This document shows, one piece after another, positions 37,429-57,113 of a DNA stretch of 64,000 nucleotides. This DNA comes from Coriobacteriia bacterium (GTDB taxonomy: Bacteria > Actinomycetota > Coriobacteriia > Anaerosomatales > JAAXUF01). The position numbers and the translations under genes are program-made. The notes beneath the pieces were generated by a model. That model did no database searches. It was not told the DNA's origin and saw nothing but the letters and a program-made list of their open reading frames with translations. The stretch's first letter is position 1, and every line of letters starts with the position of its first letter. The DNA lies in NCBI GenBank assembly GCA_013336165.1, contig JAAXUF010000002.1, positions 124,001-188,000 on the forward strand, written 5' to 3'.

Positions 37429-37980
37429 CTAGTCAAGAACCGTATAGTACGCGGCCTTCCCGGCACACATCGCACAGAGCGTACGCCCATGGACAACGAC
37501 CTCTCGGCCGTCCATCACGAACTCGCCGCACTCCTCGCATTGGGCCTTACGGTGGGTTCCGGGCATGTCCTCGAGTGCAATGTCAACATAGACGGACTGC
37601 ACTGTGAAGAGTTCCTCATCCGAGAAAGGCTCAAGAAACGCGATCAGGTCCCCTTCCTTAGGAATCTTCGGCACCTCAGGGCGCGGGACAACGCGAATCC
37701 CCTTGCCCGTGCGGGAATCCACAAACGTCATCGCCATTCTGCCTATGTCGATCAGCTTGAGGCGACGCTTGCCGATGGTGAGGCCGGTGACGGCATACGC
37801 GCCATCGGACGCGCAGCGAGCCGCCTCGACATACACCATGAGATCGCGATCCTGGCGGGGATCCTCGATGCCGAGAGCCGCGCAGGCGTACCGCGCCATC
37901 CGCACTCCAAGAACGATGCCGCCACACAAGTGACCGTGGTAGGCACAGCCGACTGCCATGTCTTCTTCGAACGTTTTCAT
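37429..37980 (-). CDS. FmdE-family protein with zinc-ribbon tail (copy 1)
   Basis: The 183-residue protein is an FmdE-type domain (PF02663), named after subunit E of formylmethanofuran dehydrogenase. The family signature is YHGHLCGGIVLGVRMA, followed by VYVEAARCASDGAYAVTGLTIGKRRLK. The end carries two CxxC pairs (CEECGE and CAMCAG), a DksA/zinc-ribbon-like metal site. FmdE proteins are linked with tungsten or molybdenum enzymes and metal uptake, but their activity is not known. Its ATG overlaps the stop of the DUF364 gene upstream. It is the last gene of the element-B operon and has a paralogue at 55777-56352. Confidence 0.82.
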   Translation of the reverse strand: MKTFEEDMAVGCAYHGHLCGGIVLGVRMARYACAALGIEDPRQDRDLMVYVEAARCASDGAYAVTGLTIGKRRLKLIDIGRMAMTFVDSRTGKGIRVVPRPEVPKIPKEGDLIAFLEPFSDEELFTVQSVYVDIALEDMPGTHRKAQCEECGEFVMDGREVVVHGRTLCAMCAGKAAYYTVLD

Positions 37981-38798
37981 AGGTACTCTCCTTGTGCAGA
38001 AGATGCTTCTTGTGGATAGAGTTTTGATCCGATCCGCCGAGCATAATCATCAGCTGTTATCTGAACAGCAACGGCGCCGTGTTTCCATATGCCGTGCACG
38101 CCCGCCTCGGCGGTCGTACGCCAGACACCATCGCGATCGGCGACTATTGTGCCTGCAAGCACGTCGACGCCCCACTCGAAGAGTATGGGCGTGAGTGGAA
38201 CACTTGGCCCGACCATCACCACACACGCATCTCTTGCGAGTTGCAGGATTCTCGGCAGCGTCTTGTTGATGAGGGTGACACCTGTGATGAAGAGGTAATC
38301 CTGCTCGGGTAGAAGGTATTCCTCGGCGAAATCGGGCAGATCGCCCGGCTGAGTGCGGCGTTCAAAGACCGAGAGCTCGCAGATGTCACTTAGCACCTCG
38401 AGTTCCGGGAAATGGCCGATGACCCCGACCTTCTTCCCGACAACATCAGAACGCAGGGAGTGGAAGGCCATCGGCGCTGCCAGCTGAGCAAGAGACCGTC
38501 CGGTCCACTCCTCGATACGGTGCGCAATGTTGTAGTGCGCGTTCATCGCGGCCATCCCCAGCGAGGCCTCAGAAAGGCTCCAGCTCCGGACAGATTCTGC
38601 GAGGGCCCGGAGGCTCCGTCCTGTGGCCGAAGCCCGCATCCCTCCCCCTTCGCAGCATTCGTCTCTGCACGTCATTGCGACGCCCAGCCCGCCCGCGTCG
38701 ACCAGCGTCCAGCCGCTTCCAATCAGATAGGATTCGACAAGCCGGTCCTCCGGGATCTCGGCGAGCAGTCGGTCGTACAGTCCCCAGCTATTAGTCAC
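37977..38798 (-). CDS. DUF4213/DUF364 protein, putative metal chelation (copy 1)
   Basis: The 273-residue protein has an N-terminal DUF4213 domain and a C-terminal DUF364 domain, described as putative heavy-metal chelation. Visible features are GMAAMNAHYN, the Rossmann-like KVGVIGHFPEL and FITGVTLINKTLPRIL, followed by VGPSVPLTPILFEWGVD, all typical of the family. Cysteines in the first half (CRDECCEGG) could bind metal. The GTG at 38798 follows AGGAAGG. It lies between the surface protein and the FmdE-like gene and overlaps the latter by four bases. A paralogue is at 54944-55777. Confidence 0.82.
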   Translation of the reverse strand: MTNSWGLYDRLLAEIPEDRLVESYLIGSGWTLVDAGGLGVAMTCRDECCEGGGMRASATGRSLRALAESVRSWSLSEASLGMAAMNAHYNIAHRIEEWTGRSLAQLAAPMAFHSLRSDVVGKKVGVIGHFPELEVLSDICELSVFERRTQPGDLPDFAEEYLLPEQDYLFITGVTLINKTLPRILQLARDACVVMVGPSVPLTPILFEWGVDVLAGTIVADRDGVWRTTAEAGVHGIWKHGAVAVQITADDYARRIGSKLYPQEASSAQGEYL

Positions 38799-38849
38799 TC
38801 CGACGCCATCCTTCCTGCTCTCTCGCTGACCCCCTCAAGACAAGCGCGA

Positions 38850-38877
38850 CTCCCGAGGCTAACCCCAGCCTCGGGAG
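38850..38877. terminator. Perfect hairpin between the surface protein gene and DUF364 gene
   Basis: CTCCCGAGGCT and AGCCTCGGGAG form an 11-bp stem with a 6-base loop, 35 bases after the surface protein stop. No T-run follows on the minus strand. It probably lowers or protects the downstream part of the transcript. Confidence 0.6.
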
Positions 38878-38911
38878 CATAGTTGCGCTTCGCCCACTGA
38901 AGAGCGGATCG

Positions 38912-40462
38912 CTACTCAGCGAGCCAGTATGCGACTCCTTCGTTCACGTATGTGTCGGACCAACGAGCGATCACGACGTCGCGCTCCCCGGTGGAAGCGG
39001 TGTAGAAGTGGCTGCCGTTGGTCTTGTTGTAGAAGCGGTAGACGGGGGTCGCTCCGGCTCTCGCCGTCGCACACACGTTGTATGCCACGCCCTCGTACTG
39101 ATAGATCGCAGACCAACGAGCGATCACGACGTCGCGCTCCTCGGTGGAAGCGGTGTAGAAGTGGCTGCCGTTGGTCTTGTTGTAGAAGCGGTAGAGCGGG
39201 GCGTTGTTGTACGGATCTGCCGTATTTACGGAAAGGGCCACGCCCTCACTTGCGTATGTGTCGGACCAACGAGCGATCACGACGTCGCGCTCCTCGGTGG
39301 AAGCGGTGTAGAAGTGGCTGCCGTTGGTCTTGTTGTAGAAGCGGTAGACGAACGAAAGGTTCGATCCCATCTTGATCGCAAAGGTCACCGTCTTGGTTCC
39401 TGTGTAGTTGCCCTTGCCGGCGAGGGTCACCGTCGCCGTACCGATGTTGATGTTGTCGGCGTAGGTCACCGTGTAGTCGGTGTCCTTGACCAGCGTTGCA
39501 GACCCGTCGGTCAGAGTGACGCTCGGCGTGATCGCCGAGCCCGTGTAGGCCTGGTCGGGGATGGCGGAAGCGGTCGCATTGGCCAGAGCACGCGTGATGG
39601 TGACCGAGTTGACCTTGGACGGGAAGCGGTTGCCCCCGTTTGCCGCCGGGGTCGTGGAGGCGAAACCGGCGAGGAAGCGCGGCGTGTCGGAGGTGTTGGT
39701 CGAGACGCTTGCCAAGGTATCGGCGGCCGTCCCTGAAACGGCGGCATTGCCGCTCTTAAGGGCGATCACAGCCGGCGCGGCACTGCCTTCACCGGACAGC
39801 GAGCCGCTCGGTGTGGTGTCGCCGTAGAAGTAGAGGTTGGCCGAGAGCTCCTCGTAGGTCGGATAGTACTTCGTGTAGGCGCCGTCGGTTGCCGCGAAAC
39901 TCAGCGTCTTGCCCGCCGCCCAGGTGCCGGCTGGCAGACTCGAGGCCGCGAAGATGTCTGAGAGCGTGACGTGAGAGTCAGTGCCAATAAGCTGCCAGAC
40001 GCCGTTCTTGTTGTACATGTAGCCAAGCTTGCCGCTCGTGGCCATCGACGCGAGGTCGGCGCTCGTGAAGGCCTTGGCCACCTGGACGGCGCCAGAGGCG
40101 TCGACGTACTTCACGGTGAATGCGGCCACAATCTTGAAAGATACTGTCTTTGTGCCCGTGTAGTTGCCCGTGCCCGTGATCGTGATACTCGCGGTACCGG
40201 GGTTGGTATTGTTGGCGTAGCCCAACGTGTAGTCGGTGTCCTTCACGAGCGTAGTGCTACCGTCAGTGATTGTCACGTTCGGTGTGATCGCCAACCCGGT
40301 ATAGGCTTGGTCCGCGACGGAGGCTACCGTGGTGCTGGCGATGTCGGTTCCAGTCGCAAGAGCAGTGAGTGGAGTGAGCGCCAGCAGCAACGCCGCCGTC
40401 AATATGACGCTGGTGATCTTCCCTCCTCGGATTATCCGACGAACTCTCTTGTGTAGATTCAC
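38912..40462 (-). CDS. Secreted surface protein with Ig-like, Moco-fold-like and DUF5648 repeats
   Basis: The 516-residue secreted protein has a signal peptide (GTG at 40462, cleaved near TALATG). Two MBG-like beta repeats (SVADQAYTGLAITPNVTI and SAIPDQAYTGSAITPSVTL) flank a middle domain of about 170 residues (LSDIFAAS...LSFAATDG). The last 150 residues are three copies of a 51-residue repeat, YRFYNKTNGSHFYTAST-type, a DUF5648 domain found in cell-surface and glycan-binding proteins. Downstream are DUF364 and FmdE genes, upstream RNA element B and a leader frame whose stop overlaps the GTG start. It likely acts outside the cell as a capture protein. Confidence 0.8.
   Translation of the reverse strand: MNLHKRVRRIIRGGKITSVILTAALLLALTPLTALATGTDIASTTVASVADQAYTGLAITPNVTITDGSTTLVKDTDYTLGYANNTNPGTASITITGTGNYTGTKTVSFKIVAAFTVKYVDASGAVQVAKAFTSADLASMATSGKLGYMYNKNGVWQLIGTDSHVTLSDIFAASSLPAGTWAAGKTLSFAATDGAYTKYYPTYEELSANLYFYGDTTPSGSLSGEGSAAPAVIALKSGNAAVSGTAADTLASVSTNTSDTPRFLAGFASTTPAANGGNRFPSKVNSVTITRALANATASAIPDQAYTGSAITPSVTLTDGSATLVKDTDYTVTYADNINIGTATVTLAGKGNYTGTKTVTFAIKMGSNLSFVYRFYNKTNGSHFYTASTEERDVVIARWSDTYASEGVALSVNTADPYNNAPLYRFYNKTNGSHFYTASTEERDVVIARWSAIYQYEGVAYNVCATARAGATPVYRFYNKTNGSHFYTASTGERDVVIARWSDTYVNEGVAYWLAE
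38958..39349 (-). repeat. Three near-identical 86-base units with a 153-base period
   Basis: The units begin at 38958, 39111 and 39264, exactly 153 bases (51 codons) apart, and differ at only a few positions. They encode the FYNK-NGSHFYTAST core of the DUF5648 repeats. Near identity of the DNA shows recent duplication or gene conversion. They are coding repeats, not a CRISPR array. Confidence 0.9.
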
Positions 40463-40599
40463 GCTGTCTTGTCCCCTTTCATGATCGAGAGCCGCACGAC
40501 GCGGCAATCCGGCAGACGACGCCTTGCTTCCCTTGACACTCCCCCGAAAGCGCACGGCGCCCAGCGAGGATTCTCCAGTGCGAGCCAAGATTCAGCCAC
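40459..40599 (-). CDS. 46-residue leader frame coupled to the surface protein gene
   Basis: A GTG at 40599 follows the GGAAAGGAG at the 3' end of RNA element B by eight bases and opens 46 codons (starting MAESWLALENP) to a TGA at 40459-40461. The stop overlaps the GTG of the surface protein (GTGA), so its translation should feed that gene. The same GTGGC-G start lies after elements C and D. The peptide is basic and has no known motif. Confidence 0.5.
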   Translation of the reverse strand: MAESWLALENPRWAPCAFGGVSREARRRLPDCRVVRLSIMKGDKTA

Positions 40600-40607
40600 G
40601 ACTTCGC

Positions 40608-40735
40608 CTCCTTTCCAATTCCACCCCATATGAACTGGGGTTTCGGGTGGTCGGGGCGTTTCCAGCCCGGCCAGTGCCTTCGCGGCAGGAACCGCATCCA
40701 TTGGCGCAAGCCGGTAGGACGACGGTCTCGGAGCG
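40608..40735 (-). ncRNA. RNA element B, candidate Moco-family riboswitch
   Basis: On the minus strand it reads CTCCGAG, a GACCG/CGGTT stem, TGCC-GCGA-AGGCA (a GNRA-capped hairpin), GGGC-TGGAAAC-GCCC, CGACCACCCG, a hairpin CCCCA/TGGGG and GGAAAGGAG. Base changes against copies A, C and D keep pairing, for example in the GNRA hairpin (TGCC/AGGCA versus GCCC/GGGC). It precedes the leader frame and the surface protein, DUF364 and FmdE genes. Confidence 0.7.
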
Positions 40736-40804
40736 GATCTTCAATTGCTACGTCTTTGTCGCGACCTCCTCACTGAATAGACGGTGCGTCTTCCGGCTGA
40801 AAAA

Positions 40805-43800
40805 CTACGGCGCCAGCCAGAACACCGGCCCTTCGTAGGTATATGTGGACGACCAGAGTGCGACAACGGTGTCGCGCTCCTCGGCTGATGCCGTGTAGAA
40901 GTGGCTGCCGTTGAGCTTGTTGTAGAAGCGGAATACCAGTGTCGCTCCCACGACATTCGCCGCGCAGACGCAATATGCGGGTCCCTCGTAGGTATACGTG
41001 GACGACCAGAGTGCGATGACGGTGTCGCGCTCCTCGGCTGATGCCGTGTAGAAGTGGCTGCCGTTGAGCTTGTTGTAGAAGCGGTACAGCGGAGCGCTGT
41101 TGTTGGGGTTCGCTGTGTTAACCGAGTATGCCGGCCCCTCGTAGGTGTACGTGGATGACCAGCGGCCGATCACGACGTCGCGCTCCTCGGCTGAGGCCGT
41201 GTAGAAGTGGCTGCCGTTGAGCTTGTTGTAGAAGCGGAAGACCGGCATGGGCGTCGACGCTGCCTTCACCGTGAAACCGACTGTTGTAGTGGCCTCTGCG
41301 TTTCCTGCAGCGTCGGCCGACCAGAAATGCAGCGTGTGGTTGCCGACCCCGGACACGCTCACAGGCGCCGAGTACGTCCTCTGCGGATCGGCGTCCAGGA
41401 TGTAATAGGTGCTGACGCCGCCCACGCCGACATCGGTCGCCGACAGCATGAACATCGCCGAACCCGTGTAGCTGCCTCCCGAAGTGATGCCGGCGAGCGT
41501 TGTCACCGGTGCGATTCTGTCGGCGACGATCGAAAACGTCGCGCTCTTGGTCCCGGTGTAGTTGCCCTTGCCGGTGATGGTGAGACTGGCGGCTCCCACC
41601 GCCACATTGTCCTGGTAGGCGATGGTGTAGTCCGTGCCCTTCGCGAGCGTGGTGGAGCCGTCCTTCACCGTGGCCGTTGGCACTATCGCCGAGCCGGTCT
41701 GGATCTGATCGGGGATCGCCGAGATGCTCGCCGAGGAAATCGCCTTCGGTGTGATCGTGAAGGTCGCGTTCTTGGTCCCTCCGTATTCGCCCTTACCCGT
41801 GATCGTGACAGTCGCGGTGCCAGTGTTGACGTTGTTGGTGTAGGCAACGGTGTAGTCGGTCCCCTCGGCGAGCGTTGTCGAACCGTCCGTCACGACAACT
41901 GTTGGCGTGATGGCCGAACCGGTGTACGTCTGGTTGGAAATCGCTGCGATTGAGGCAGTCGAAATGGGCGCGCCTGCAACGATCGCGAAGTCCTTGGTAA
42001 CGGCGCTTCCGAGCACGTTTGAGCCGCTCGGCGTTATCGTGACGTGCCCTGTGCCGAGACCGTTGTTGTTGCTGTACGCAAGCGTGTAGTCAGTGCCCGA
42101 CTTGAAGTTGAGGGGCGCGCCGGTTGACGCATCGGTAAAGGTGACCTCCGGCGTCACAGGGCTCCCGGCGTAGAATGCCTGCGCGACTGAGATGTTGACG
42201 CTTCCGTCGCTCAGACTCGCCGGGGTGATCGAGAACGTCCCTATGAACGTCGAGGCGTTCGTCGCGGACGTACCCCGCAGATGAGCTCCCTCCGCGTTAC
42301 CGGCAACCGTGACGGTATACGCATTCCCGACGTTGGTGACGCCGCCGCCCTCCCCGGGGCCGGACTGGTTCACGGTAACCGTGAAGTCGCTGGGATCAAA
42401 AGCGGCACTCTTGCCTGAATCGACGATCGTGACCGACGGGACGATCGCATTACCGGTGTAGATGTAGGAGTTCTTCGCGTACGCGATGGAAGCCCATTGG
42501 TAGTAGCGCCAGTTGCTGATGTATGTGCTCGTCCTTACGCCGTTGTGGTCATAGTAGTAGTAGTACTTGTGATCGAGCGTCGCAGGCCGGATCTCGACCT
42601 CAAGGCTAAGAGAGAAGTCTGCCGCGAGATTCAGGTAGTTGGTCGATGCCAAGGTATTCGGCACCAGTCTTAGCGTGTAGATTCCAGGTTCGGCCGCCTT
42701 GGACACAGGCTCGGCATTCGCATTCAGGATTTGGGTGACGCTGAAGCAGCCCTTCTCGTACGCGTTCACCGCTTCGCCGGTGATGTGAACGGTCGGATCG
42801 GTCTTCCATGCAACGGTTAGGATGGATGCAAGGTCGGCCGCCGAGTAGCCGTTGACCCGGTAGGCGAACGCCTTGCCGACGTAGGACATCACGGGGTTGT
42901 CGGAATCGCCATTGCCGATCTTGATGTTCGCGTAGGTGTCAAAATCGGACGCCTTCAGGGTGCCCTTGTTGATCGTGAACGGCTTCGCCACGGACGTGCC
43001 TGTGTAAAATCCCTCGCCCGTGACTGTCAGGTTTCCGGTGCCCGGCCTAGCGTTCGCCGAGACGCTCAGTCCGCTCAGTTCATAGTCCACACCCGCAACC
43101 AGCGTCTCGTGCGTCGAGTTGTCGGTGACGATCACCTGAGGAACCGGTGTTCCGGCGGGGGTGTAGGTCACCGACCCTAGGGTAACCGTGCATCCGGTCC
43201 CGATGTTGGTGAGAGGCCTACTTGAGATCGTCCACGACAAGGTCACCGTGGCGAACCTGACGCTTCCCTCCTCGGTAGGCACGATGGCGTAGTACAAGAC
43301 GTCGCCGACTTGATAGGTCGTCGGAGAGGTGATCGTCGCGCCGCCGCGAACAAGATGATCGAACGTGGCTGTGTAGTTGGAGGGATCGACGGTGTTCCCA
43401 ACGTACGTGACCTTGGGTGTCATTCCTGTCGGCAGCTGGCCGCCGTTGTACGCAACCTCATTGCGAATCTGGCCAACTGCAAGCTTGCCGTCGCCGTTCG
43501 TCGCAGTAACCTGGTTGATATCGAAGGTCATCAGCACGTAGTTGGAAAGCCACGTATCACCCGACCCATAGCGGACTGTCACTGCTCCTGTGGTCTGCGC
43601 TTCCAGATTCGCAACCGCGCCTGCGTCGATCAGATCGCCGCTGGATCCCCCGCCATAAATGGCGAGGTAGTCTCCGCCGTTGGTAAGGCTGCGGCTTCCC
43701 CACAACACACCCATGACCTCGGGGTTGATCTCCTCACCGGTGTAGTCAACGCTCATCCCGTAGACCGGATTACCGCTGCCGTCCACGTGAAGCGGCTCGG

Positions 43801-46543
43801 CGGCCTTCAGCATCCTTCCAGCAGAAAACGTGTTCCCGGTGGTATCGGCTACGTCCGGCAGCGCATAGACCTCAGGGTAGCCGGTCCCGGGATCGTGGAT
43901 GACGTTGCCGGAGCCGTCCTTCTTCACTCTGGCTTCGTAGAACTTGTCTTGGTTCTCGTCCCAGTACCAGACGCGATCGCCATACGTCACGCCGATTACG
44001 TCGCACTGCAGGTAGAGATCGATCTTGTCGATCACGTAATAGCCGGTAACGCTTCCTGTGTAGTTGCTGTTGGCTTTGGCCGACGCAACAACAGGGTAGT
44101 TGTTCGAGGTCGTTGGCGTTCCCGGAACCCTCAAGTCGTACGAGACGTTGGTGCAGTCCTTGCCGTAGTTGACGAGGTACGTGTACACGGAGGAGTCGAC
44201 AGTCCCGCCGCCCGCGTCCCTCACGCTGACCGCCGGTGCATTCTGCGCTACGCCTGTGTATCTGGCGTGCGCGACAGAGACCACGCACGTGGAGAAGTCA
44301 CCCTTGTCGATCCCATAGGTGACACTACCCGTCTGTCCGCTATAGGCGCCCATGCCCCTGATGCTCGCCGAATATGGGGCCGTGCCGGGTGTCACGCCTT
44401 TGCAGACGCCGTTTCCGTCCAGCGCCGCACCGTCGCCGACAACGACATAGTCGGCTCCCTCGACAAGCTCGACCTGATTGCCGCTGATGGTCGCCACCAC
44501 ATGCAACTTCGGGGTCGGATTGAAGGACACCGAGTACTTCGCGTTCAAGACACGGGTGATGGAGCAGGGAATCGTCGACAGGTCGGTCGTGACCGGTGTC
44601 GCTTCGCCGTTCAGCACCGGATAGCCGTGGTTCGTCCCCGGGACGCCGATGTAGTAGCTTGCCCACATCTCCACGGGAGCATAGGCGTTGAGAAGTGCGG
44701 TCGCCCTGCTCGACGTAAGCGAGATCGCGGTGTTGGCTGCCGCCTCGGCGTCGGTGGGGTACACGACGGCGCAGTCGCTCACTACGCCGATATCCTCACC
44801 AACAAAGGCGTCGCTCCGCGTCGATGCCTTGCTCACCGTACCCGCGAGGAGCAGACAGTCATGGACCCTACCGTTGTTCTCGCCGACGATCCCGCCTTCC
44901 TTGTAGGTCAGACTCACCGCGTTGCAGTACACCTGACCTGTGTTGTAGCAGGCGTACACCTCTGGAACCGGATGCCGGATGCTCCCGTTCTGGGTGTAGG
45001 TGACGAGCATGCCAACGATGCCGGCCGTGTAGTAGCCCGTCTGAGTGTTCTCGCTGTCGCCATGGTTCCGGCAGTAGGAGACGACGCCGTAGCTCTGGCC
45101 GACGATTCCCGCGCCGGCTGGCTTGTTCCATCGGGTCGTGCGGACGTGGCCGACAAGACCGGTCGTGTCGAAGGTCGTTCCGTTCGCGCAACGCGTGATC
45201 TTCGTATACGTGCCCGCGGTACCGCAGATTCCGCCAACAGCGTGGAGGCCGGAAACGTAGCCGTCGTTGTAGCAACCGGTGAGAACGAGAGGATCTATGC
45301 CGCCGCCATCGATGCCGGCGTCGGTGCCCTCCGTGGCGAGACCGGACAGGGTCGAACCGCGCAGCGAACCGATGATGCCACCCACCCCGTCTCCGCCGCC
45401 AGCGGAATTCAGCAGTGCCGTTGAGTCGAGGTCCGAGGTGTCGGTGGCGGACGTGCACACGATCGTGCCGTGGTTTGTACAATCGCTTACGTTGCCGATC
45501 GTGATCCCGCCCACGCCCCCGACATAGCCGGACGCCGAAGCCACAACCTCGCCGAAGCGGTCGACTCCACCGGCGCCCGACGTGACGACCGTGATTGAAC
45601 CGGAGTTACTGCAGCCCGAAATGTCGCCATGCGTGCCGAGACCCGCTTGGCTGGGAGCGCCACCGGAGCGGCCGACCACGCCACCGATGTTGATGGCGAC
45701 TGAAGTGACGCTCTTGCCATCGTTGTCGAGGAATGCGTTCGCGGGCGTGGATACCCTGACGCTCCCCGAGAACGAGCAACCGGAGATGTCCTTGTCGCAG
45801 ATGCCGGCAATGCCGGCGACATTGGTTATGACGACCGCAGCCGATCGGTTACCGCCGGCTGCGCCATCGTCCCAGACGACGGTCACCGCAGCCGCGCTCG
45901 CGCAGTTCTGGATGCTGCCTTGGCAGTCGCCGACGAGCCCGCCTATGTTCTCGACGAACGCCGAAGACGACTGCACAGTAACCCTGCAAGAGTCCGTCAG
46001 GCTCAGGTTCCTGATCACGGAGTTAGGGCCTGTGACACCGAAAAGACCGGCATTCGAAGTGTCCGTCGCTTGGGTCACCGCAAGACCGGCTATCTCCTTG
46101 CCGGCACCATCGAAAGTCCCGTCGAACGGATGCGTCATCGTCCCGATCGGCTTGGACTGGTTGCCATAACCGCCGAGGAGATTGACGTTCCCGCCCATCG
46201 TCACGGTCTTCCCAGCGAAGTTCACGGCGTCATCGGCGGCGATGACCTTACCGTCGCCGTTGGTGTCGATCTCGCCATTCACCAGCGCCGAGAACCCGCT
46301 CCATGCGCCGGTCGTTCCCGGGAGCGTGAAGGACGAGGCGGCAGGGTTTGAGGTGTACCACGAAGTGTCCGGTGTCGCGTACGACGCATAGGCGGTGGCC
46401 GCGCCCGCAACGAGCACTGCGACAGTCCCGATCAGCGCAAGACCTGCGCGTCTCGGCCTTCGGTTCGGCTTGCCGCTCTCCCGCTTGTCCGACGTGAACA
46501 GACGCGAGCGGCTTGAAGTGTGCTTGACCCCAAGGCCAATCAT
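40805..46543 (-). CDS. Giant secreted surface protein (1912 residues)
   Basis: The protein has a signal peptide after a long basic n-region (RRPRRAGLALIGTVAVLVAGA). The N-terminal third has GLUG-type repeats such as GGIVGENNGRVHDC and GVGGIIGSLRG, and a dockerin-like calcium loop DTNGDGKV. The middle contains many Ig-like/MBG repeats (YTGSAITPTVVVTDGSTTL type). The last 150 residues hold three 51-residue DUF5648 repeats. There is no LPXTG motif or C-terminal membrane helix, so it is released or attached by other means. GAAGGAAGAG precedes the ATG at 46543. It is the last gene of the element-C operon, after the ExbB/DUF2149 pair. Confidence 0.85.
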   Translation of the reverse strand: MIGLGVKHTSSRSRLFTSDKRESGKPNRRPRRAGLALIGTVAVLVAGAATAYASYATPDTSWYTSNPAASSFTLPGTTGAWSGFSALVNGEIDTNGDGKVIAADDAVNFAGKTVTMGGNVNLLGGYGNQSKPIGTMTHPFDGTFDGAGKEIAGLAVTQATDTSNAGLFGVTGPNSVIRNLSLTDSCRVTVQSSSAFVENIGGLVGDCQGSIQNCASAAAVTVVWDDGAAGGNRSAAVVITNVAGIAGICDKDISGCSFSGSVRVSTPANAFLDNDGKSVTSVAINIGGVVGRSGGAPSQAGLGTHGDISGCSNSGSITVVTSGAGGVDRFGEVVASASGYVGGVGGITIGNVSDCTNHGTIVCTSATDTSDLDSTALLNSAGGGDGVGGIIGSLRGSTLSGLATEGTDAGIDGGGIDPLVLTGCYNDGYVSGLHAVGGICGTAGTYTKITRCANGTTFDTTGLVGHVRTTRWNKPAGAGIVGQSYGVVSYCRNHGDSENTQTGYYTAGIVGMLVTYTQNGSIRHPVPEVYACYNTGQVYCNAVSLTYKEGGIVGENNGRVHDCLLLAGTVSKASTRSDAFVGEDIGVVSDCAVVYPTDAEAAANTAISLTSSRATALLNAYAPVEMWASYYIGVPGTNHGYPVLNGEATPVTTDLSTIPCSITRVLNAKYSVSFNPTPKLHVVATISGNQVELVEGADYVVVGDGAALDGNGVCKGVTPGTAPYSASIRGMGAYSGQTGSVTYGIDKGDFSTCVVSVAHARYTGVAQNAPAVSVRDAGGGTVDSSVYTYLVNYGKDCTNVSYDLRVPGTPTTSNNYPVVASAKANSNYTGSVTGYYVIDKIDLYLQCDVIGVTYGDRVWYWDENQDKFYEARVKKDGSGNVIHDPGTGYPEVYALPDVADTTGNTFSAGRMLKAAEPLHVDGSGNPVYGMSVDYTGEEINPEVMGVLWGSRSLTNGGDYLAIYGGGSSGDLIDAGAVANLEAQTTGAVTVRYGSGDTWLSNYVLMTFDINQVTATNGDGKLAVGQIRNEVAYNGGQLPTGMTPKVTYVGNTVDPSNYTATFDHLVRGGATITSPTTYQVGDVLYYAIVPTEEGSVRFATVTLSWTISSRPLTNIGTGCTVTLGSVTYTPAGTPVPQVIVTDNSTHETLVAGVDYELSGLSVSANARPGTGNLTVTGEGFYTGTSVAKPFTINKGTLKASDFDTYANIKIGNGDSDNPVMSYVGKAFAYRVNGYSAADLASILTVAWKTDPTVHITGEAVNAYEKGCFSVTQILNANAEPVSKAAEPGIYTLRLVPNTLASTNYLNLAADFSLSLEVEIRPATLDHKYYYYYDHNGVRTSTYISNWRYYQWASIAYAKNSYIYTGNAIVPSVTIVDSGKSAAFDPSDFTVTVNQSGPGEGGGVTNVGNAYTVTVAGNAEGAHLRGTSATNASTFIGTFSITPASLSDGSVNISVAQAFYAGSPVTPEVTFTDASTGAPLNFKSGTDYTLAYSNNNGLGTGHVTITPSGSNVLGSAVTKDFAIVAGAPISTASIAAISNQTYTGSAITPTVVVTDGSTTLAEGTDYTVAYTNNVNTGTATVTITGKGEYGGTKNATFTITPKAISSASISAIPDQIQTGSAIVPTATVKDGSTTLAKGTDYTIAYQDNVAVGAASLTITGKGNYTGTKSATFSIVADRIAPVTTLAGITSGGSYTGSAMFMLSATDVGVGGVSTYYILDADPQRTYSAPVSVSGVGNHTLHFWSADAAGNAEATTTVGFTVKAASTPMPVFRFYNKLNGSHFYTASAEERDVVIGRWSSTYTYEGPAYSVNTANPNNSAPLYRFYNKLNGSHFYTASAEERDTVIALWSSTYTYEGPAYCVCAANVVGATLVFRFYNKLNGSHFYTASAEERDTVVALWSSTYTYEGPVFWLAP
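40851..41242 (-). repeat. Three 86-base units with a 153-base period in the giant surface protein
   Basis: Units begin at 40851, 41004 and 41157, 153 bases apart, and encode the FYNKLNGSHFYTASAEERD core of the DUF5648 repeats. They match the repeats at 38958-39349 closely, but each gene's copies are more alike to one another than to the other gene's. Confidence 0.85.
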
Positions 46544-46644
46544 CGCTCTTCCTTCCTCGGCGCAGTCAACATTGCGCCCCATCCCCTGTACCGACCGTTC
46601 CTGCTTCCTCGCATCGTCCGCGAATGCGCGCCGACGGAATAACG

Positions 46645-47037
46645 CTAGTCCGCGCCTTGTGCTCGACTTGTCGCGCTCGGCGCCGCAGTCTCCTCACCGG
46701 AACCGCTGCTCGAGCCGCCGTCCGCACCCTTCACTAGGTAGAGCTTGCCGGAAGTCGGATCTTGGTAGACGGTACCGACCTGGGTGTAAAGGCCGCTCCC
46801 GGACGTCAGCTCCTCGGCAAGCTCCTGGACCTTGCTCATTTCCGTCATCGCGTCCTGTTTCACGAGCTTCACGGAGGAGAAGTCGAGATTCCAGTACGAC
46901 AGCAGCGCGACCATGAGCCCGCACGAGAACACCAGCATCACGTCAACGAGGTTCACGAGCGACGTGCGCGGATCGACCTCGCTCTCGTCGCTGAGTGCGG
47001 TATGGAGGAATGCGCTACCTCTCAGAGTCCGCGCCAT
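46645..47037 (-). CDS. DUF2149 protein, ExbD-like partner of a proton channel
   Basis: The 130-residue protein has one membrane helix (VDVMLVFSCGLMVALLSYW) after a short cytoplasmic N-terminus and an extracellular tail. DPRTSLVNLVDVMLVF matches the DUF2149 family. The aspartate at the start of the helix (LVDVMLVF) corresponds to the proton-binding aspartate of ExbD/TolR. ExbD works with ExbB to turn proton flow into mechanical work. The C-terminal tail ends in a Ser/Gly/Ala-rich stretch. The ATG at 47037 comes two bases after the stop of the ExbB-like gene. Confidence 0.82.
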   Translation of the reverse strand: MARTLRGSAFLHTALSDESEVDPRTSLVNLVDVMLVFSCGLMVALLSYWNLDFSSVKLVKQDAMTEMSKVQELAEELTSGSGLYTQVGTVYQDPTSGKLYLVKGADGGSSSGSGEETAAPSATSRAQGAD

Positions 47038-47705: not shown

Positions 47706-47707
47706 GG

Positions 47708-50727: not shown

Positions 50728-50732
50728 CACGA

Positions 50733-51602
50733 TCACTGTTCGTCGCGCCCGCAGCAAGACGAGATAGCGCGACTGGAGCGCTCTTGGCGCCAAGAGATGA
50801 ACGCCCATATGACAATCCTCGGCTCAGCCCATTCCCAGCAGGACTCGCCTTTACGATCGACTCCTGGCACAAGATGCTCGGCGAGGTAACGCTCGAGCAG
50901 CTCCTCCTCTCGTAGACTCACGTCGGACAACATGTCAGAGACGACTCTCCTCGCATCCTCGCGAGTCGCGAAGAACTCGGGCTTCGTGCTCTCAATGAAG
51001 CGAAGTTCGGGCCTGATCCCCATCTGAAAGAGGATGTTCATGGCGTAGACATAGCCAAGGTCGGTTGGGAATTCGCGGCCGATAGCGGCGAAGATCCGGC
51101 TGTCATGCCGAGGAGAGCCTCCTGCCGCCAGGGTCAGGCAAACGCGATACCGGGCAGCGGCGTTGAGCTTGCGAAGCGCCGAACCCAGGTCGGCGACGGC
51201 AATCGAACGCGATGCGATCGCAACGTCAGCCTGACCGACACCCGCCGCCTCCCAGTCGTCGTCCCAGCTCGCGCGCACGGTGCGGATCGACGAGAGGCCC
51301 TCTTTGGCAGCCTGCTGCTCAAGGAGCGAAAGCATAGCCGGTGAGAAGTCGGCAGACGTTACCTGGTGACCCTGGCGTGCCAGCGGCAGCGAAAGAGTGC
51401 CCGCACCGCATCCGAAATCCAAGACGGTCGCCCCCGGAGCGATCTGGGCGTATTCGAGGAATTCCGACGCATAGTGCGACGTGCCGGCCTTCGTGGCGAA
51501 GGAGGGGGCGCGCTTGTCCCAGTATGAGGGGGAGTCGTCGTAGCTGCGATTCGCCTGCAACTGCATCCACTCTCCATTCCAATCATGTTCCGTGAGCAAC
51601 AT
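50733..51602 (-). CDS. Class I SAM-dependent methyltransferase
   Basis: The 289-residue protein has a SAM-binding domain with motif I LDFGCGAGTLSLPLA, an acidic second motif (SADFSPAM) and a YWDKRAPSFATKAG opening seen in methyltransferases of anaerobe metal clusters. The last third is helical (REEELLERYLAEHLVPG). It lies between two binding-protein genes of the same transporter, so it may modify a metal chelator or the cargo. I chose the ATG at 51602, preceded by GAGGAGAGAAGG; an ATG at 51623 is possible. Confidence 0.8.
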   Translation of the reverse strand: MLLTEHDWNGEWMQLQANRSYDDSPSYWDKRAPSFATKAGTSHYASEFLEYAQIAPGATVLDFGCGAGTLSLPLARQGHQVTSADFSPAMLSLLEQQAAKEGLSSIRTVRASWDDDWEAAGVGQADVAIASRSIAVADLGSALRKLNAAARYRVCLTLAAGGSPRHDSRIFAAIGREFPTDLGYVYAMNILFQMGIRPELRFIESTKPEFFATREDARRVVSDMLSDVSLREEELLERYLAEHLVPGVDRKGESCWEWAEPRIVIWAFISWRQERSSRAISSCCGRDEQ

Positions 51603-51730: not shown

Positions 51731-52897
51731 TTACTTCGTGTAGCTGTTGCCGAGCAGCTCCTTTGCTTGGGAGTCCGTCAAGTCGACGTGATAGAACAAG
51801 CTGTAGAACTCCTTGGTCACACTGACCATGTCGACCTTGTACGCGTTGGGATAAAGCGTGTTCGCCAACCACTGAACGCCGAGGAACCTGTTGACCGCAG
51901 GCGGGCGGTCGCACCACGAGAACGGCACGTTCGGCATCGTGTAGACGAGACCGTTCTTCACGGCGCTGATCGTTGCCCAGTCCCGGTTCGTGCGGATGAG
52001 TTCGTCCGCACCACCCCGCAAGACGTCGTCCCAAGCGATGATTACTTGTGGGTTCCACGCTAGCACCTGCTCAAGTGACACCTCGGACATGCCTTTGGAG
52101 GCACCAACCGCAACGCCGACCGCTGCGTTCTTTGCGCCAGCAAGCTTGAATGCTACGGCATGCTGAGAGGCCTCGGGCTCGGTCTGCAAGCCCTTGGGGC
52201 CCTCGGCATAATAGACGCTCACGCGCTTGTCTTGGGGGACCGTTTCAACAGCCTTCTGCACAGCATCCAGCGTGTTCTCGCAGTAGCTGGCGAGCTTCTC
52301 GGCTTCTTTTTCCTTTCCGAGAATCGTGCCGAGTTTCCGGTACGCGTTCGATATCTTGTCCATCGAGCCGTCTATGCAGACGACGGGAATTCCCGTTTGT
52401 TTCTGGAGGTCGTCCGCGGTACTGATGTCGCTCGCCGTCAGGGCCACCGACGAAATGTTGAAGATGACCTGAATCCCCTCCGCGACGATCGCCTCAGGGT
52501 TGAGCTTGCCACCCGAGGCGAGCGAGCCAAGGTTCTTGAGATCGGCGGTGCCTTTCGGCAGGTACTTCAGTTCGGCCGCCGAGAAATCCATCGTGGTTCC
52601 GCCTGAGAGTTCAGGTGCTAGCGTGAAGCAGAATATCTGAGCCACGGGGCTCGTGAAATAGATCTTTTTCAGCTTGCCGACCTCCGGGACGGTCACCGTC
52701 CGTCCGGCGTCATCGGTGATAGTACGATCGGCCATGGCATCGACCGTGGCGGCAGTGGTATCGGTCTTCACGGCAGCGGTGCTTTTGGAGCCAGTGCAGC
52801 CAAACAGCGAGCCCGTCGGCACAGCGAGCGCGAACACCAGCGCCAACACAGCTAACCGTCCGAGGCCTCTGGCCCCTCCTCTTGAACCTGATCTCAT
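51731..52897 (-). CDS. FecB-type ABC substrate-binding lipoprotein (copy 1)
   Basis: The 388-residue lipoprotein has a lipobox LFGC and the same fold as its neighbour: RTITDDAGRTVTVP, KKIYFTSPVAQIFC and LEQVLAWNPQVIIAWDD. The two proteins agree along their whole length, including VYYAEGPKGLQTEPE and the end (KELLGNSYTK versus KELLGNSYPPYRA). Both bind the same class of ligand or split two oxidation states or metals. The ATG at 52897 follows GGAGAGAAAGGG. It lies downstream of the ATPase gene. Confidence 0.88.
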   Translation of the reverse strand: MRSGSRGGARGLGRLAVLALVFALAVPTGSLFGCTGSKSTAAVKTDTTAATVDAMADRTITDDAGRTVTVPEVGKLKKIYFTSPVAQIFCFTLAPELSGGTTMDFSAAELKYLPKGTADLKNLGSLASGGKLNPEAIVAEGIQVIFNISSVALTASDISTADDLQKQTGIPVVCIDGSMDKISNAYRKLGTILGKEKEAEKLASYCENTLDAVQKAVETVPQDKRVSVYYAEGPKGLQTEPEASQHAVAFKLAGAKNAAVGVAVGASKGMSEVSLEQVLAWNPQVIIAWDDVLRGGADELIRTNRDWATISAVKNGLVYTMPNVPFSWCDRPPAVNRFLGVQWLANTLYPNAYKVDMVSVTKEFYSLFYHVDLTDSQAKELLGNSYTK

Positions 52898-52995: not shown

Positions 52996-53772
52996 CTACA
53001 TCAACGGGACGCACACCCGTACCGATCTCCCCTGCGCACGACTGACTTCAGCAACGAGCACGCTGGTCCCGTAGATCGCCTGCATACACTCGTTGTCGAT
53101 CACGTCGGCGGGCGTACCGTCGTGCGTGATGACGCCGTCCTGGACGACGATCACCCGGTCCGCGCACAGCAGCGCGTGGTCGGGATCGTGCGTGACCATG
53201 AGCACTCCCATGCCTGCATCGGCAAGCTTGCGCATCTGCGCCATGACGATGTGCTGGTTTCCGAAATCCAAGCTCGCAGTGGGCTCGTCCATCACGAGCA
53301 GATCGGGCTTCTGTGCGAGAGCACGAGCGATGATGACGAGCTGGCGCTGCCCACCGGAGAGCTGCGTGTACGTACGACTCGCTAGGTGCTCGATCGAAAG
53401 GCGGCGCAGAGCGCAGACCGCAATCGCTTTGTCCTCCTCGGACACCACCGCAAGGCGGTTGATGTAGGGAGTTCTCCCCATGATCACGACGTCGGCGACT
53501 GTGAACGGGAATGGAGGCGTGTGTGCCTGCGGGATGTAGGCCACGCGCCGGGCGAGTTCGCGTTCGCGCATCCGCAACACACTGTCGCCATCCATCTTGA
53601 TGCTGCCCGAGAACGGCTTGGCGAAGCCGAGTACGTTCTTGAGGATCGTCGTCTTGCCGCACCCATTCGCGCCGAGCATGCACACGAACTCCCCGCGCCC
53701 TACCGAGAAGGTTGCGTCGTGGATGACCTCGTGCTTGTCGTACCCGGCGCAGAGATTGCGGACTTGGAGCAT
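52996..53772 (-). CDS. FecE/FepC-type ABC ATPase
   Basis: The 258-residue ATPase has Walker A GANGCGKTT, signature LSGGQRQ, Walker B LLVMDEPTASLD and switch histidine in MVTHDPDH. The IPQAHTPPFPFTVADVVIMGRTPYI stretch marks the iron-chelate/cobalamin uptake subfamily. The ATG at 53772 shares one base with the stop of the permease gene (TGATG). A GTG at 53781 would add three residues. Confidence 0.9.
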   Translation of the reverse strand: MLQVRNLCAGYDKHEVIHDATFSVGRGEFVCMLGANGCGKTTILKNVLGFAKPFSGSIKMDGDSVLRMRERELARRVAYIPQAHTPPFPFTVADVVIMGRTPYINRLAVVSEEDKAIAVCALRRLSIEHLASRTYTQLSGGQRQLVIIARALAQKPDLLVMDEPTASLDFGNQHIVMAQMRKLADAGMGVLMVTHDPDHALLCADRVIVVQDGVITHDGTPADVIDNECMQAIYGTSVLVAEVSRAQGRSVRVCVPLM

Positions 53773-54947
53773 CAGTTCCACCCCCGAACGTTGTGGCGGA
53801 AGATCACGACGAAGAACGGCACCCCGAAGATCGCCGTGAGAATGCCGATGGGAACCTCGACAGAGGACGCCAGACGAGCGATGTCGTCGACCAGCAGCAG
53901 GTAACTCGAGCCAAGCAGCACCGAGACCGGCAGGAGCACGCGGTAGTTGGGGCCGACAAGCGCCCGGCCGAGATGCGGGATCACAAGCCCGATCCAGCCG
54001 ATGACCCCCGCGACCGCCACTGCGGTCGAGACGACCAGCGTCGAAGCGAAGATGACGATCAGGCGCGTCAGGCGCGTGTTTACGCCCATGCTACGCGCCT
54101 CTTCCTCCCCGAACGACAACACATTCAGCCGCCATCGTTGCGTCATGAGAAGCACGAAGCCGAGAAGCATGGGCACGAGGATGGTGAGGAAGTCCCGCTG
54201 GTCGATCGACGCGAAGCTGCCCATCAGCCAGAACGTGATTGTCGGCAGCTTGTCGTTGGCGTCGGCGAGGTACTTCACGAGCGATGTGCCCGCCTGGAAC
54301 AGCGTCGATACCAAGATGCCGCCGAGAACGAGTCCGAGGATGGGGTCGTACTTCACCAGCCGGTTCATCCCCACCGCGAGTGCCACCGCGAGCATGCCGC
54401 CCGTGAAGGCGAAAAGCTGAATCATCGCCGTCGGCATGTTGAGCAGGAGAGCGAGGCACGCCCCGAGACTCGCTCCCGCAGATGCGCCGAGAATGTCGGG
54501 CGAGACGAGCGGATTCTTGAACATCCCTTGGTAGGACGCCCCCGCAACCGACAGGGCGCCCCCAACAATCATGGCAACAAGAACTCTGGGAAGCCTGATG
54601 TTGAAGATCACGGTCTGGATCTGCTGGTTGGTGATCGATGCCGGATCGGCGAAGTGCCACCAGATGTTCTGAATGAGCTGCCATGGCGTCACGGGATATC
54701 TCCCGACCGAGAACGACCCGACGAACATCACCACCATAAGGACGGCCAGCAACAGTTGTGTCCTCTTCGAAATCTTGCGCCCAAATGCAGCGTTCACTGA
54801 AGCAGCCGCGACGACGCCCTCGGCCTCAACGACAGCCGCGTCTTCCGGCGTGAGAGGAATGCCGGCGGGGCGTCGCACGCCGCACTGCGGCACCTTCTCC
54901 TGGTGCGGATCGACGTCGCTCGCTCGTGTCTGATTCGAGTCCCTCAC
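53772..54947 (-). CDS. FecCD/BtuC-type ABC permease
   Basis: The 391-residue permease has a hydrophilic N-terminal extension of about 55 residues, then about ten membrane helices of the FecCD fold. Family marks are RLPRVLVAMIVGGALSVAGASYQGMFKNPLVSPDILGASAGA and WIGLVIPHLGR. The conserved GASxGA loop contacts the ATPase. The GTG at 54947 overlaps the stop of the DUF364 gene (GTGA). It is followed by the ATPase and the two binding proteins. Confidence 0.9.
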   Translation of the reverse strand: MRDSNQTRASDVDPHQEKVPQCGVRRPAGIPLTPEDAAVVEAEGVVAAASVNAAFGRKISKRTQLLLAVLMVVMFVGSFSVGRYPVTPWQLIQNIWWHFADPASITNQQIQTVIFNIRLPRVLVAMIVGGALSVAGASYQGMFKNPLVSPDILGASAGASLGACLALLLNMPTAMIQLFAFTGGMLAVALAVGMNRLVKYDPILGLVLGGILVSTLFQAGTSLVKYLADANDKLPTITFWLMGSFASIDQRDFLTILVPMLLGFVLLMTQRWRLNVLSFGEEEARSMGVNTRLTRLIVIFASTLVVSTAVAVAGVIGWIGLVIPHLGRALVGPNYRVLLPVSVLLGSSYLLLVDDIARLASSVEVPIGILTAIFGVPFFVVIFRHNVRGWN

Positions 54948-55777
54948 CGTCCCTGACGCTCCAACTGCATCATCTGCACGCCGTCGTTGAACAACATGTG
55001 AGCGCCCTGTTCGATCAAGCGGCGGACCCGGGCCTTGTCCACAACGACCGAGCCTGCCGCGACGTCCACGCCATAGTCGAAGAGCACCGGTGACGGCACG
55101 ACGCTGGGACCCACTAGGATGCACGTGGCGCGTCGCGAGAGTTCGAGCAGCCGGACGATCGTCTTGTTGGTCATCGCCGTCCCCGTGATGAAGACAAAGT
55201 CCTGTCTAGGAAGGAGGAACTCACAGGCAGAGTCCGGCAAGTCGGACGTGGAAGCGGGCGAACGCTCGAGGACGGTGAGTTCGCAGAGGTCGGCAAGGTC
55301 CCCGACGGCCGGGAAATGACCGATGACGGCCACACGCCGGCCGCGAATCTGCTCGCGGTACGCTCTGAAGGCATCGTCTCGGCGACCGACGTCTCTCTCG
55401 GCGGACAGCCGGACGCCGAGGACGGCAAGCCTCTCAGGCGAGCTGTGCCACGCGTTGAGCGCCGCGATCCCCACCGATGCCTCGCGGAAGTTCCACGACT
55501 TCGCGTACGCTGCAAGCTCGTGCAGTTGAAGTCCATCCGCCTGCTCGGCAAGGGAGTAGGCGCCGGGCCCGCCTTTGACCGCAAGCGACACTCCCATGCC
55601 GCACTCAGCGTCGACGTATGCCCACCTGCTGCCGAGACACCAGTGCTCGATCCGGATGCCTCTCGGGATGCCAGCGATAAGGTGGTCGTAGAGCGCCCAC
55701 GGCTCCCGAGTAGCACCGGGGCACTCTGCGACCGTTCCCCCCACGGAGAGGCAGGCCGGCGCGGCATCGGCCCCCAT
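54944..55777 (-). CDS. DUF4213/DUF364 protein, putative metal chelation (copy 2)
   Basis: The 277-residue protein is a paralogue of the DUF364 protein at 37977-38798. The shared features are SVGIAALNAWH, RVAVIGHFPAV, FITGTAMTNKTIVRLL and VGPSVVPSPVLFDYGVDV. It should bind a metal or chelate in the cytosol. The ATG at 55777 shares a base with the FmdE gene stop (TGATG), and its stop overlaps the permease start, so it is firmly inside the uptake operon. Confidence 0.83.
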   Translation of the reverse strand: MGADAAPACLSVGGTVAECPGATREPWALYDHLIAGIPRGIRIEHWCLGSRWAYVDAECGMGVSLAVKGGPGAYSLAEQADGLQLHELAAYAKSWNFREASVGIAALNAWHSSPERLAVLGVRLSAERDVGRRDDAFRAYREQIRGRRVAVIGHFPAVGDLADLCELTVLERSPASTSDLPDSACEFLLPRQDFVFITGTAMTNKTIVRLLELSRRATCILVGPSVVPSPVLFDYGVDVAAGSVVVDKARVRRLIEQGAHMLFNDGVQMMQLERQGR

Positions 55778-56352
55778 CAGCCGACTTCGCACTTCGCGGC
55801 GCTCTTGCGGTAGTAGAGAGGCAGTCCGGCGCATGCCTTGCACAGCACGAGTCCGTCACGAACCAGATGGCGATTGTCGAGGACGTGCTCGCCACACGTG
55901 TCGCACGTCACGTGCGCTTTGGGCCTGCCCGGCAAGTCGTACTCGTCGATGTTGACGACCACATCTTCCACCGAGAAGAACTCGTCGTCCGCAAAGCGCG
56001 AGAAGAACTCGACCGTGTCTTCATTCGGACCGGGCTTTGCCTGCCCAATCGAACAGACACGAACGGCGGAGTCGGTATTGATGTCGTAGAACGTCGCCGC
56101 CATCTTCCCATAGTCAAACCACTTGAGCCGCCGGCGTCCGATGTTGCACTTCGCCACCGAGCAGACGGCGTCGGCAAGACACCGGTCGGCCTCGACGAAA
56201 GCGATCAGATCGCGATACGTTTCGGGCTCGTCGATCCCAAAATGCGCGAGCCCTATCCGTGCGATGCGCGTGCCCAGCACCTGCCCCGCGCACAGGTGAC
56301 CGTGATAGGCGACGGCCATGGCCAGATCCTCATCGAACGTTCTCTTCAGCAC
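55777..56352 (-). CDS. FmdE-family protein with zinc-ribbon tail (copy 2)
   Basis: The 191-residue protein is a paralogue of the one at 37429-37980. It has the signature YHGHLCAGQVLGTRIA, the core FVEADRCLADAVCSVAKCNIGRRRLKW and a C-terminal two-CxxC zinc ribbon (CDTCGE and CKACAG). The GTG at 56352 follows GAGAGG, seven bases upstream. It stands between the P-loop NTPase gene and the DUF364 gene. A role as metal sensor or chaperone is inferred from its pairing with uptake genes. Confidence 0.83.
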   Translation of the reverse strand: MLKRTFDEDLAMAVAYHGHLCAGQVLGTRIARIGLAHFGIDEPETYRDLIAFVEADRCLADAVCSVAKCNIGRRRLKWFDYGKMAATFYDINTDSAVRVCSIGQAKPGPNEDTVEFFSRFADDEFFSVEDVVVNIDEYDLPGRPKAHVTCDTCGEHVLDNRHLVRDGLVLCKACAGLPLYYRKSAAKCEVG

Positions 56353-56383
56353 TTGTGGACCTCTCTTCTTTGTCGGACGCTTC

Positions 56384-56974
56384 TCAGACGCCTGTCCTGC
56401 TTCTCGGCTCGCCTGTCTCGGCACAAACTTGGATGACTTCCGCACTTGGCCAGCGCGTGGTCGCGATCTCGAGAAGACTCGGCCGCACGACGACGAAGGC
56501 AGTGCGATACACACCGGAATCGATGACGGAAAGCGCCGACTGCCACCCCACGCCGCTGAGGAGTTCGAGCGGCCCGATCTCGTCGACAATGAGATATTCC
56601 GAGGCGCGGAGCAGATCGAAGTGGCGCTCGACGCGCTGCATCAGTTGAGAGTCGAAGTTCCACGCGAGCCGAAAAGTTGAGGGGTCGCTGGGGATGCTGA
56701 GATCGCGGCGCTCGGCCAGCCGCAGACGCGTACCGTCCTCTTCCCCGCCGAGGAACGCGACGTCGATTCCGGTCTTCCGGCCATTCTCGAAGACCGGCGG
56801 GCAGACAACTCCGTGGAATTCCACGCCGGTGAGTTGTGCCTGCGCGAGGAGGGCAAGACACCATGAGGTCTTACCACAGCCGGATGGGCCGCTCACGATA
56901 TTGAGCCGAGAAGCGCCCGAGGACGTCAAAACGTCCGTCGGGAGACCTCCCGACGGACGCCAAAATTCCGCCAC
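56384..56974 (-). CDS. P-loop NTPase of THEP1 type
   Basis: The 196-residue NTPase has Walker A GPSGCGKTS and Walker B YLIVDEIGPLEL, the pattern of the THEP1/DUF2478 group of nucleotide-triphosphatases, some of which lie near molybdenum genes. It is the first gene after RNA element C. The GTG at 56974 lies nine bases after GGAAAGGAG, but the first 16 codons run through a perfect terminator hairpin (56928-56959), so the true start may be the TTG at 56929, at the end of the T-run. The protein may use energy to load metal or chelate onto FmdE or DUF364. Confidence 0.75.
   Translation of the reverse strand: MAEFWRPSGGLPTDVLTSSGASRLNIVSGPSGCGKTSWCLALLAQAQLTGVEFHGVVCPPVFENGRKTGIDVAFLGGEEDGTRLRLAERRDLSIPSDPSTFRLAWNFDSQLMQRVERHFDLLRASEYLIVDEIGPLELLSGVGWQSALSVIDSGVYRTAFVVVRPSLLEIATTRWPSAEVIQVCAETGEPRSRTGV
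56928..56959 (-). terminator. Intrinsic terminator of RNA element C
   Basis: CGTCCGTCGGGAG (56947-56959 on the minus strand) pairs perfectly with its 13-base complement at 56932-56944, with a two-base loop, followed by TTTT at 56931-56928. It lies inside the start of the NTPase frame and 25 bases beyond element C, so it is the natural expression platform of the riboswitch. Confidence 0.8.
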
Positions 56975-56983
56975 GGGCGTTGT

Positions 56984-57113
56984 CTCCTTTCCAAGTTAAA
57001 CCTCGTATGTGCCGAGGTTTCGGGTGGTCGAAGCGTTTCCACTTCGGCCATTGCCCTTGCGGGCGGGGCTTGGCTCCCATTGGCTCACGCCGGCAGGTAA
57101 CCAAGCTCGGAGG
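56984..57113 (-). ncRNA. RNA element C, candidate Moco-family riboswitch
   Basis: Minus strand: CCTCCGAG, stem GCTTGG/CCAAGC, CCTGCC.., hairpin GCCC-GCAA-GGGC, CGAAG-TGGAAACG-CTTCG, ACCACCC, hairpin AAACCTCG/CGAGGTTT, then AACTTGGAAAGGAG. Copies C and D are the most alike. It controls the NTPase-FmdE-DUF364-ABC-ExbB/DUF2149-surface protein operon of about 16 kb. No ORF lies in 57114-57229. Confidence 0.75.

Follow-up and report, generated by a model that had tools for sequence, protein, structure and literature searches.

The described systems closest to the locus reported here are the ExbB-ExbD-TonB motor, the Hmu haem system of Bacteroidota, the MolBC-A molybdate importer of Haemophilus influenzae (HI1470–1472), and the molybdenum cofactor (Moco) riboswitch regulon, with ModABC and the moa operons. 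In the Bacteroidota haem operon the ExbB and DUF2149 proteins are HmuU and HmuV, respectively, encoded with HmuT and with HmuS, a CobN-like dechelatase (PMC10434189, PMC12583661, PMC13227078); MolBC-A is an importer of the FecCD class. We have examined a 64,000-nucleotide window of a Coriobacteriia genome (contig JAAXUF010000002.1, positions 124,001 to 188,000), in which the minus strand from 57112 to 37429 encodes an ExbB-DUF2149 pair together with a FecBCD-type importer, surface proteins, and two FmdE and two DUF364 proteins, behind Moco riboswitches. We propose that this is a molybdenum (Mo) acquisition system, in which a Moco-repressed FecBCD importer has a surface receptor worked by a proton motor, a reading to which we give an even chance of being right.

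As in Hmu, ExbB and DUF2149 adjoin a C-terminally anchored extracytoplasmic protein in a metal-acquisition operon, but there is no CobN, HmuY or HmuR, no outer membrane was found, the anchored protein is immunoglobulin (Ig)-like and molybdopterin-fold-like, and a FecBCD importer and Moco riboswitch control are added. With MolBC-A the locus shares the class of its FecB, FecCD, and ATPase components, and both of its FecB proteins match MolA (E ~1e-16 to 1e-18), although two other solved proteins (4pag and 4ovk) are closer to them; unlike MolBC-A, it has a putative motor driven by the proton-motive force (PMF), surface proteins, FmdE and DUF364 proteins, and two binding proteins. It has in common with ExbB-ExbD-TonB a MotA/TolQ/ExbB channel and a single-transmembrane (TM) partner with a conserved Asp, but DUF2149, with a much shorter external part, stands in place of ExbD and no outer-membrane receptor was found. 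Finally, the operon has the same riboswitch class and lies in the same genomic island as members of the Moco regulon, but its importer is of the FecBCD class, and three of the four riboswitches carry an extra P5 hairpin.

Moco riboswitches and the link to molybdenum

All four Moco riboswitches in the window score above the gathering cut-off of Rfam RF01055, and their presence is not due to chance. One precedes the main operon (56984–57112, minus strand; 49.7 bits, E 6.8e-9; P3 hairpin GCCC-GCAA-GGGC), one a second unit (40591–40745, minus strand; 42.6 bits, E 8.3e-7), one a DUF3825 gene (58208–58363, minus strand; 44.5 bits, E 2.3e-7), and one modABC (29687–29819; E 1.2e-11). A preliminary description of this DNA had placed candidate Moco-type riboswitches before both halves of the locus, and the first two of these confirm it. 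The extra P5 hairpin is common to the first three and is lacking in the modABC riboswitch; because they share it, the sequences suggest that these three arose from one another.

The preliminary description left the cargo as molybdenum or tungsten, and the first of these has fared better. The P3 hairpin is present in all four riboswitches, and in the study that defined the motif RNAs with P3 were assigned to Moco and those lacking it to the tungsten cofactor, by correlation (Regulski 2008; PMC2408646), so that Mo is favored over tungsten. The genome has no tungsten enzyme of the aldehyde:ferredoxin oxidoreductase (AOR) type, and given this absence and the presence of P3, tungsten is disfavored as the cargo. 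Molybdopterin oxidoreductases (PF00384) are matched at ten places in the genome, and the window also encodes moeA, mogA, a MOSC protein, moaC, moaA, mobB, and modABC, the last approximately 8 kb from the operon; no riboswitch for other metal cofactors was found within the window. Earlier structural work on FmdE and DUF364 proteins used genome context to place them close to metal transport (PMC2954224, PMC2954201). We consider the link of the operon to Mo to be well supported, and through it FmdE and DUF364, two families that have structures but no assigned function, gain a Mo context.

Organization of the locus

Gene finding and Pfam scans located every component that had been listed in the preliminary description, in coupled operons on one strand as it had claimed. 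Some gaps between genes of the long unit are 62 to 164 nt wide, but most gaps in the locus are −4 to 31 nt, and because most are this small there are likely two transcription units, one of about 16 kb and a second of about 3 kb; terminator and promoter scans gave signals no better than those of shuffled sequences. The long unit (all coordinates here are on the minus strand) begins with a P-loop NTPase of the NTPase_1 family (56384–56929; PF03266, E 1e-11), an FmdE protein with a C-terminal zinc finger (copy 1, 55777–56352; PF02663, E 4e-26, and PF01258), and a DUF4213-DUF364 protein (copy 1, 54944–55777; PF04016, E 2e-33). The importer follows, with a FecCD/BtuC-type ATP-binding cassette (ABC) permease (53772–54947; PF01032, E 1e-82), an ABC ATPase of the FecE/BtuD type (52996–53772; PF00005, E 2e-30) whose best NCBIfam matches are haem, corrinoid, and FecE ATPases, and two FecB-type binding lipoproteins, the first at 51731–52849 (PF01497, Peripla_BP_2, E 1e-17; PDB 4pag, 4ovk, and MolA 3psa) and the second, with twin-arginine and lipobox signals, at 49582–50736 (PF01497, E 2e-16; PDB 4pag 1e-40, MolA 2e-18). 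Between the lipoprotein genes lies that of a class I S-adenosylmethionine-dependent methyltransferase (50733–51566; PF13649, E 2e-11).

Next in the unit are a secreted anchored protein of 589 amino acids (47708–49477), the ExbB/TolQ-type channel subunit (47040–47705; PF01618, MotA_ExbB, 39 bits against a cut-off of 22.9), which has invariant Thr137 and Thr167, and the DUF2149 protein (46645–47037; PF09919, 40 bits against a cut-off of 27.1), which has a single TM helix with invariant Asn29 and Asp32 and a short tail, and is the candidate ExbD-like partner. The last gene encodes a secreted surface protein of 1925 amino acids with a C-terminal DUF5648 domain (40805–46582; PF18885, E 2e-53). The second unit encodes another secreted surface protein with a C-terminal DUF5648 domain (38912–40402; PF18885, E 6e-37), a second DUF4213-DUF364 protein (37977–38798; PF04016, E 1e-34; PDB 3l5o, E 1e-43), and a second FmdE with a C-terminal zinc finger (37429–37980; PF02663, E 2e-29); a genome-wide search shows that both FmdE genes of the genome sit in the locus and that there are no others.

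The preliminary description counted three secreted repeat proteins. Two DUF5648 surface proteins and an anchored protein are indeed present, but the anchored one is not a repeat protein: it has Ig-like domains (Big_2), a domain resembling the sulfite-oxidase molybdopterin fold (Oxidored_molyb-like, ~48041–48589), a linker, a WQVFEM motif, and a C-terminal TM helix, and it is our proposed partner of the motor. A fold search did not help to identify it, returning only Ig, S-layer, and cadherin matches (mean pLDDT 59), and a profile search with the molybdopterin-like domain found no solved structure. The Oxidored_molyb model (PF00174) is matched by five of eight homologous domains (best E 3.3e-5).

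The ExbB-DUF2149 pair in a cell lacking an outer membrane

The gene adjoining exbB matches DUF2149 only, and not ExbD (PF02472). The structural model of DUF2149 has one helix, with the invariant Asn-x-x-Asp, and a short tail (mean pLDDT 66), so that it is predicted to be ExbD-like in the helix with the conserved Asp only and to lack a sizeable outer domain; the earlier ExbD-like label holds for that single helix and goes no further. The channel Thr of ExbB is conserved in 16 sequences and the TM Asp of DUF2149 in an alignment of 37, and these conserved residues argue for a working channel. We note that the DUF2149 proteins of FecBCD-type loci (46645–47037 in the window, and L044, L047, L053, and L055 among the numbered loci of other genomes) end in a common (R)A.GAD tail, which possibly derives from overlap with the ribosome site of the next gene.

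The host genome is 99.5% complete, and searches across all of it found no Omp85, no TonB-dependent outer-membrane receptor, and no CobN/HmuS chelatase (PF02514), the last ruling out a CobN encoded elsewhere in the genome as a missing partner; TonB is absent from the operon proteins, its model (PF03544) not having been searched genome-wide. To the extent that genes can tell, the host cell thus lacks an outer membrane, in agreement with the preliminary description.

An ExbB alignment scanned against named genomes yielded 80 loci, and neighborhoods were analyzed over 98 loci. The named best matches of the window ExbB are from Eggerthellaceae and other Coriobacteriia, and DUF2149 is present in 18 of 99 relatives. 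ExbB-DUF2149 pairs occur in several settings. Loci of a CobN type (13 of the 98) are found in Bacillota, archaea, and others, and FecCD is present at another 13; the order to which the window belongs has a propeller type, and further types carry other surface proteins. None of the 98 loci has both CobN and FecCD. The preliminary description therefore overstated how unusual an ExbB-type channel is in a monoderm, since archaea and Bacillota widely carry ExbB-DUF2149, in many cases next to CobN-like proteins; such a motor is not new in itself, and its partner is not TonB.

Some of these loci have further features. A TiaS-like protein of 250 amino acids is encoded after DUF2149 in the propeller type (L022, L023, L026, L033, and others), and also in Gordonibacter and Methanobrevibacter loci. 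In Clostridium ljungdahlii (L082, 4967–6275) ExbB is followed by two tandem DUF2149 genes and preceded by a C-anchored secreted protein of 1224 amino acids, and in Dethiobacter (L083) ExbB-DUF2149 and an Oxidored_molyb-like anchored protein are followed by energy-coupling factor (ECF) A/A'/T genes and a PBP-type regulator.

Recurrence of the importer-motor combination

FecBCD-ExbB-DUF2149 operons recur in related genomes, and co-occurrence there was a check suggested in the preliminary description. A maximum-likelihood tree places the window ExbB as sister (94/84) to the ExbBs of six loci (L044, L047, L053, L055, L059, and L087), in which ExbB-DUF2149 adjoins FecB, and lies before FecCD-ATPase where the contig allows; the operon order in Eggerthellaceae and Coriobacteriales is FecB-ExbB-DUF2149-FecCD-ATPase(-DUF364). 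Because the window ExbB groups apart from the propeller-type ExbBs of its own order, the tree suggests either lateral acquisition or differential loss within the order. Almost the full gene set is kept in a Bacillota metagenome-assembled genome (L068), where the order runs from DUF364 and the methyltransferase through FecCD, ATPase, and FecB to a homologue of the anchored protein, followed by ExbB, DUF2149, and a giant surface protein; that a different phylum has such an order argues for the parts working together.

Links to molybdenum or tungsten recur as well. DUF2149 has a Moco riboswitch no more than 5 kb away in four other genomes of the order, against an expectation of 0.26 within 10 kb (P 1.4e-4, or P 2.3e-3 when two congeneric genomes are counted once), and in two of these four Tup-like ABC genes lie behind the riboswitch. 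ModA/ModB genes adjoin ExbB-DUF2149 in L062 and L084, and a Methanobrevibacter locus (L109) has the formylmethanofuran dehydrogenase genes fwdA-fwdC-fwdB beside FecBCD, a C-anchored protein, ExbB-DUF2149, and a TiaS-like protein. An ExbB-type motor with DUF2149 is thus kept in metal-acquisition operons in lineages of Actinomycetota, Bacillota, and archaea that are usually taken to be monoderm, and because the combination is retained by relatives from other phyla, these motors probably have a job in cells lacking an outer membrane.

The anchored protein as a candidate motor target

A secreted protein with one TM helix, at its C-terminus, is encoded next to the pair at many loci, its gene either directly preceding exbB or following closely on DUF2149. 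The outer domains of this protein vary, being CobN, a propeller, or Ig-like domains with an Oxidored_molyb-like domain. The recurrence of a C-anchored neighbor beside ExbB is the main reason for naming the anchored protein as the putative target of the motor. An expectation-maximization search for a juxtamembrane motif in 50 anchored proteins gave a score of 165, compared with 86.5 ± 3.3 for shuffles, a difference inflated by related sequences. The motif before the TM helix is KAYE[VIL] in the CobN types and WQVFEM in the window protein, and the CobN-trained motif transfers weakly to the other proteins (Fisher P 0.001 over 47; window P 0.08); we keep it as a weak lead.

A proposed mechanism and its alternatives

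In the mechanism that we propose, a drop in Moco would release expression from the two Moco riboswitches, which by homology would be off-switches. The surface and anchored proteins would gather a Mo species, with the two DUF5648 proteins fixing the assembly in the cell wall or S-layer. ExbB and DUF2149 would make up a motor driven by protons, with a moving element that acts on the C-terminal anchor of the 589-amino-acid protein, and its motion would help to free ligand from surface-bound receptors to the FecB lipoproteins, which would pass the Mo species to the FecCD permease and ATPase for import. Because ModABC is already present, the cargo is probably a chelate or pterin-linked form of Mo rather than free molybdate, and DUF364, FmdE, the methyltransferase, and the NTPase may act on it inside the cell. 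What the sequences show is gene content, gene order, riboswitches, and conservation; the target of the motor, the exact cargo, and, as in the preliminary description, motor-driven transport from surface to cytosol are inferred. The locus makes the role of a TonB-like motor in a cell lacking an outer membrane testable.

Several observations weigh against this mechanism. MolA is only third among the solved relatives of both FecB proteins, after 4pag and 4ovk, and the molybdopterin-like domain of the window protein does not by itself match PF00174. The arguments for contact between motor and anchor are gene position, a C-terminal anchor in common, and the weak motif (window P 0.08), and L055 lacks an anchored protein within range. 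In the nearest FecBCD-ExbB loci, those of Eggerthellaceae, no Moco riboswitch reaches the gathering cut-off. Relatives in the class also have Moco-controlled FecBCD with molybdopterin-fold lipoproteins, with no DUF2149 found, so that the motor would not be needed for import and is at most accessory.

These relatives raise the question of whether the cargo is an organic pterin, the same machine salvaging molybdopterin or Moco shed by other cells, much as B12 riboswitches control B12 importers. Moco-riboswitch loci in two other families of the class (genomes G085, G089, and G081) combine Oxidored_molyb-like lipoproteins with FecBCD (L132, L140) or ECF importers (L138, L142), and some have a salvage-like set of extras: a secreted calcineurin-like phosphoesterase (L140, L142), an APH-like kinase (an assignment firm only for L142), and MobB (L132, L139). 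We regard these loci as a possible salvage system for Moco or molybdopterin itself; DUF2149 was not found in these genomes, which are 77–90% complete. For the window, salvage would fit with a sensor that binds Moco itself, with the provision of molybdate by ModABC, with the usual carriage of cofactors or chelates by FecBCD/BtuCD and ECF importers, and with the proposal that DUF364 acts on a pterin or flavin derivative (PMC2954201). However, neither a kinase nor a secreted phosphoesterase is encoded at the window locus, Moco is very labile when free, the organism has its own de novo synthesis of Moco, and the receptor domain is a distant relative that possibly does not bind; we consider salvage unlikely. 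The locus does raise the possibility of cofactor salvage under Moco riboswitch control, and in its fullest form sulfite-oxidase-fold receptors would catch Moco or a fragment, ExbB-DUF2149 would pull the anchor, FecBCD would import the ligand, and the cofactor would shut the operon through the riboswitch, a monoderm PMF-assisted salvage that we hold slightly more doubtful still. A literature search found no description of Moco import, nor of a PMF motor acting on a surface receptor where there is no outer membrane.

Alternatively, FecBCD could import another metal complex (iron, haem, corrinoid, or nickel), with Moco control coordinating it with molybdoenzymes that also need that metal. The permease and ATPase are most like BtuC, FecE, and haem types, the Bacteroidota ExbB-DUF2149 serves haem (PMC10434189, PMC12583661), and the Eggerthellaceae operons lack the riboswitch as noted above, but no other metal-cofactor riboswitch occurs in the window, CobN/HmuS is absent from the genome, and FmdE, fwd, and mod neighbors appear in independent lineages; we judge this as doubtful as the fullest form of salvage.

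It is less probable again that ExbB-DUF2149 drives a surface process, in which the giant surface proteins are moved, displayed, or released, and is only co-transcribed with the importer. Many related loci do have large surface proteins and no FecBCD (FecCD being present in 13 of 98), and the anchored partner is rich in Ig-like domains. The pair nonetheless adjoins FecB or FecCD in the six sister loci, mostly lying between both, and Mo/W genes recur beside surface proteins that otherwise differ. Finally, a 2025 survey regards the incomplete Ton systems of Actinobacteria and other monoderms as probably without function (PMC12204202), but its motif set (PF02472, PF03544) does not include DUF2149, and with the channel residues conserved, the reading frames intact, and the gene order kept across phyla, we think it very improbable that the channel is a functionless vestige.

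Other features of the window

The DUF3825 protein gene (57230–58120, minus strand; PF12873, E 9e-63) has no known Mo role; it has its own Moco riboswitch (58208–58363) and stands between two of them. The region from 9803 to 22009 of the window encodes a molybdopterin aldehyde oxidoreductase together with maturation genes of the DVU_155x type.

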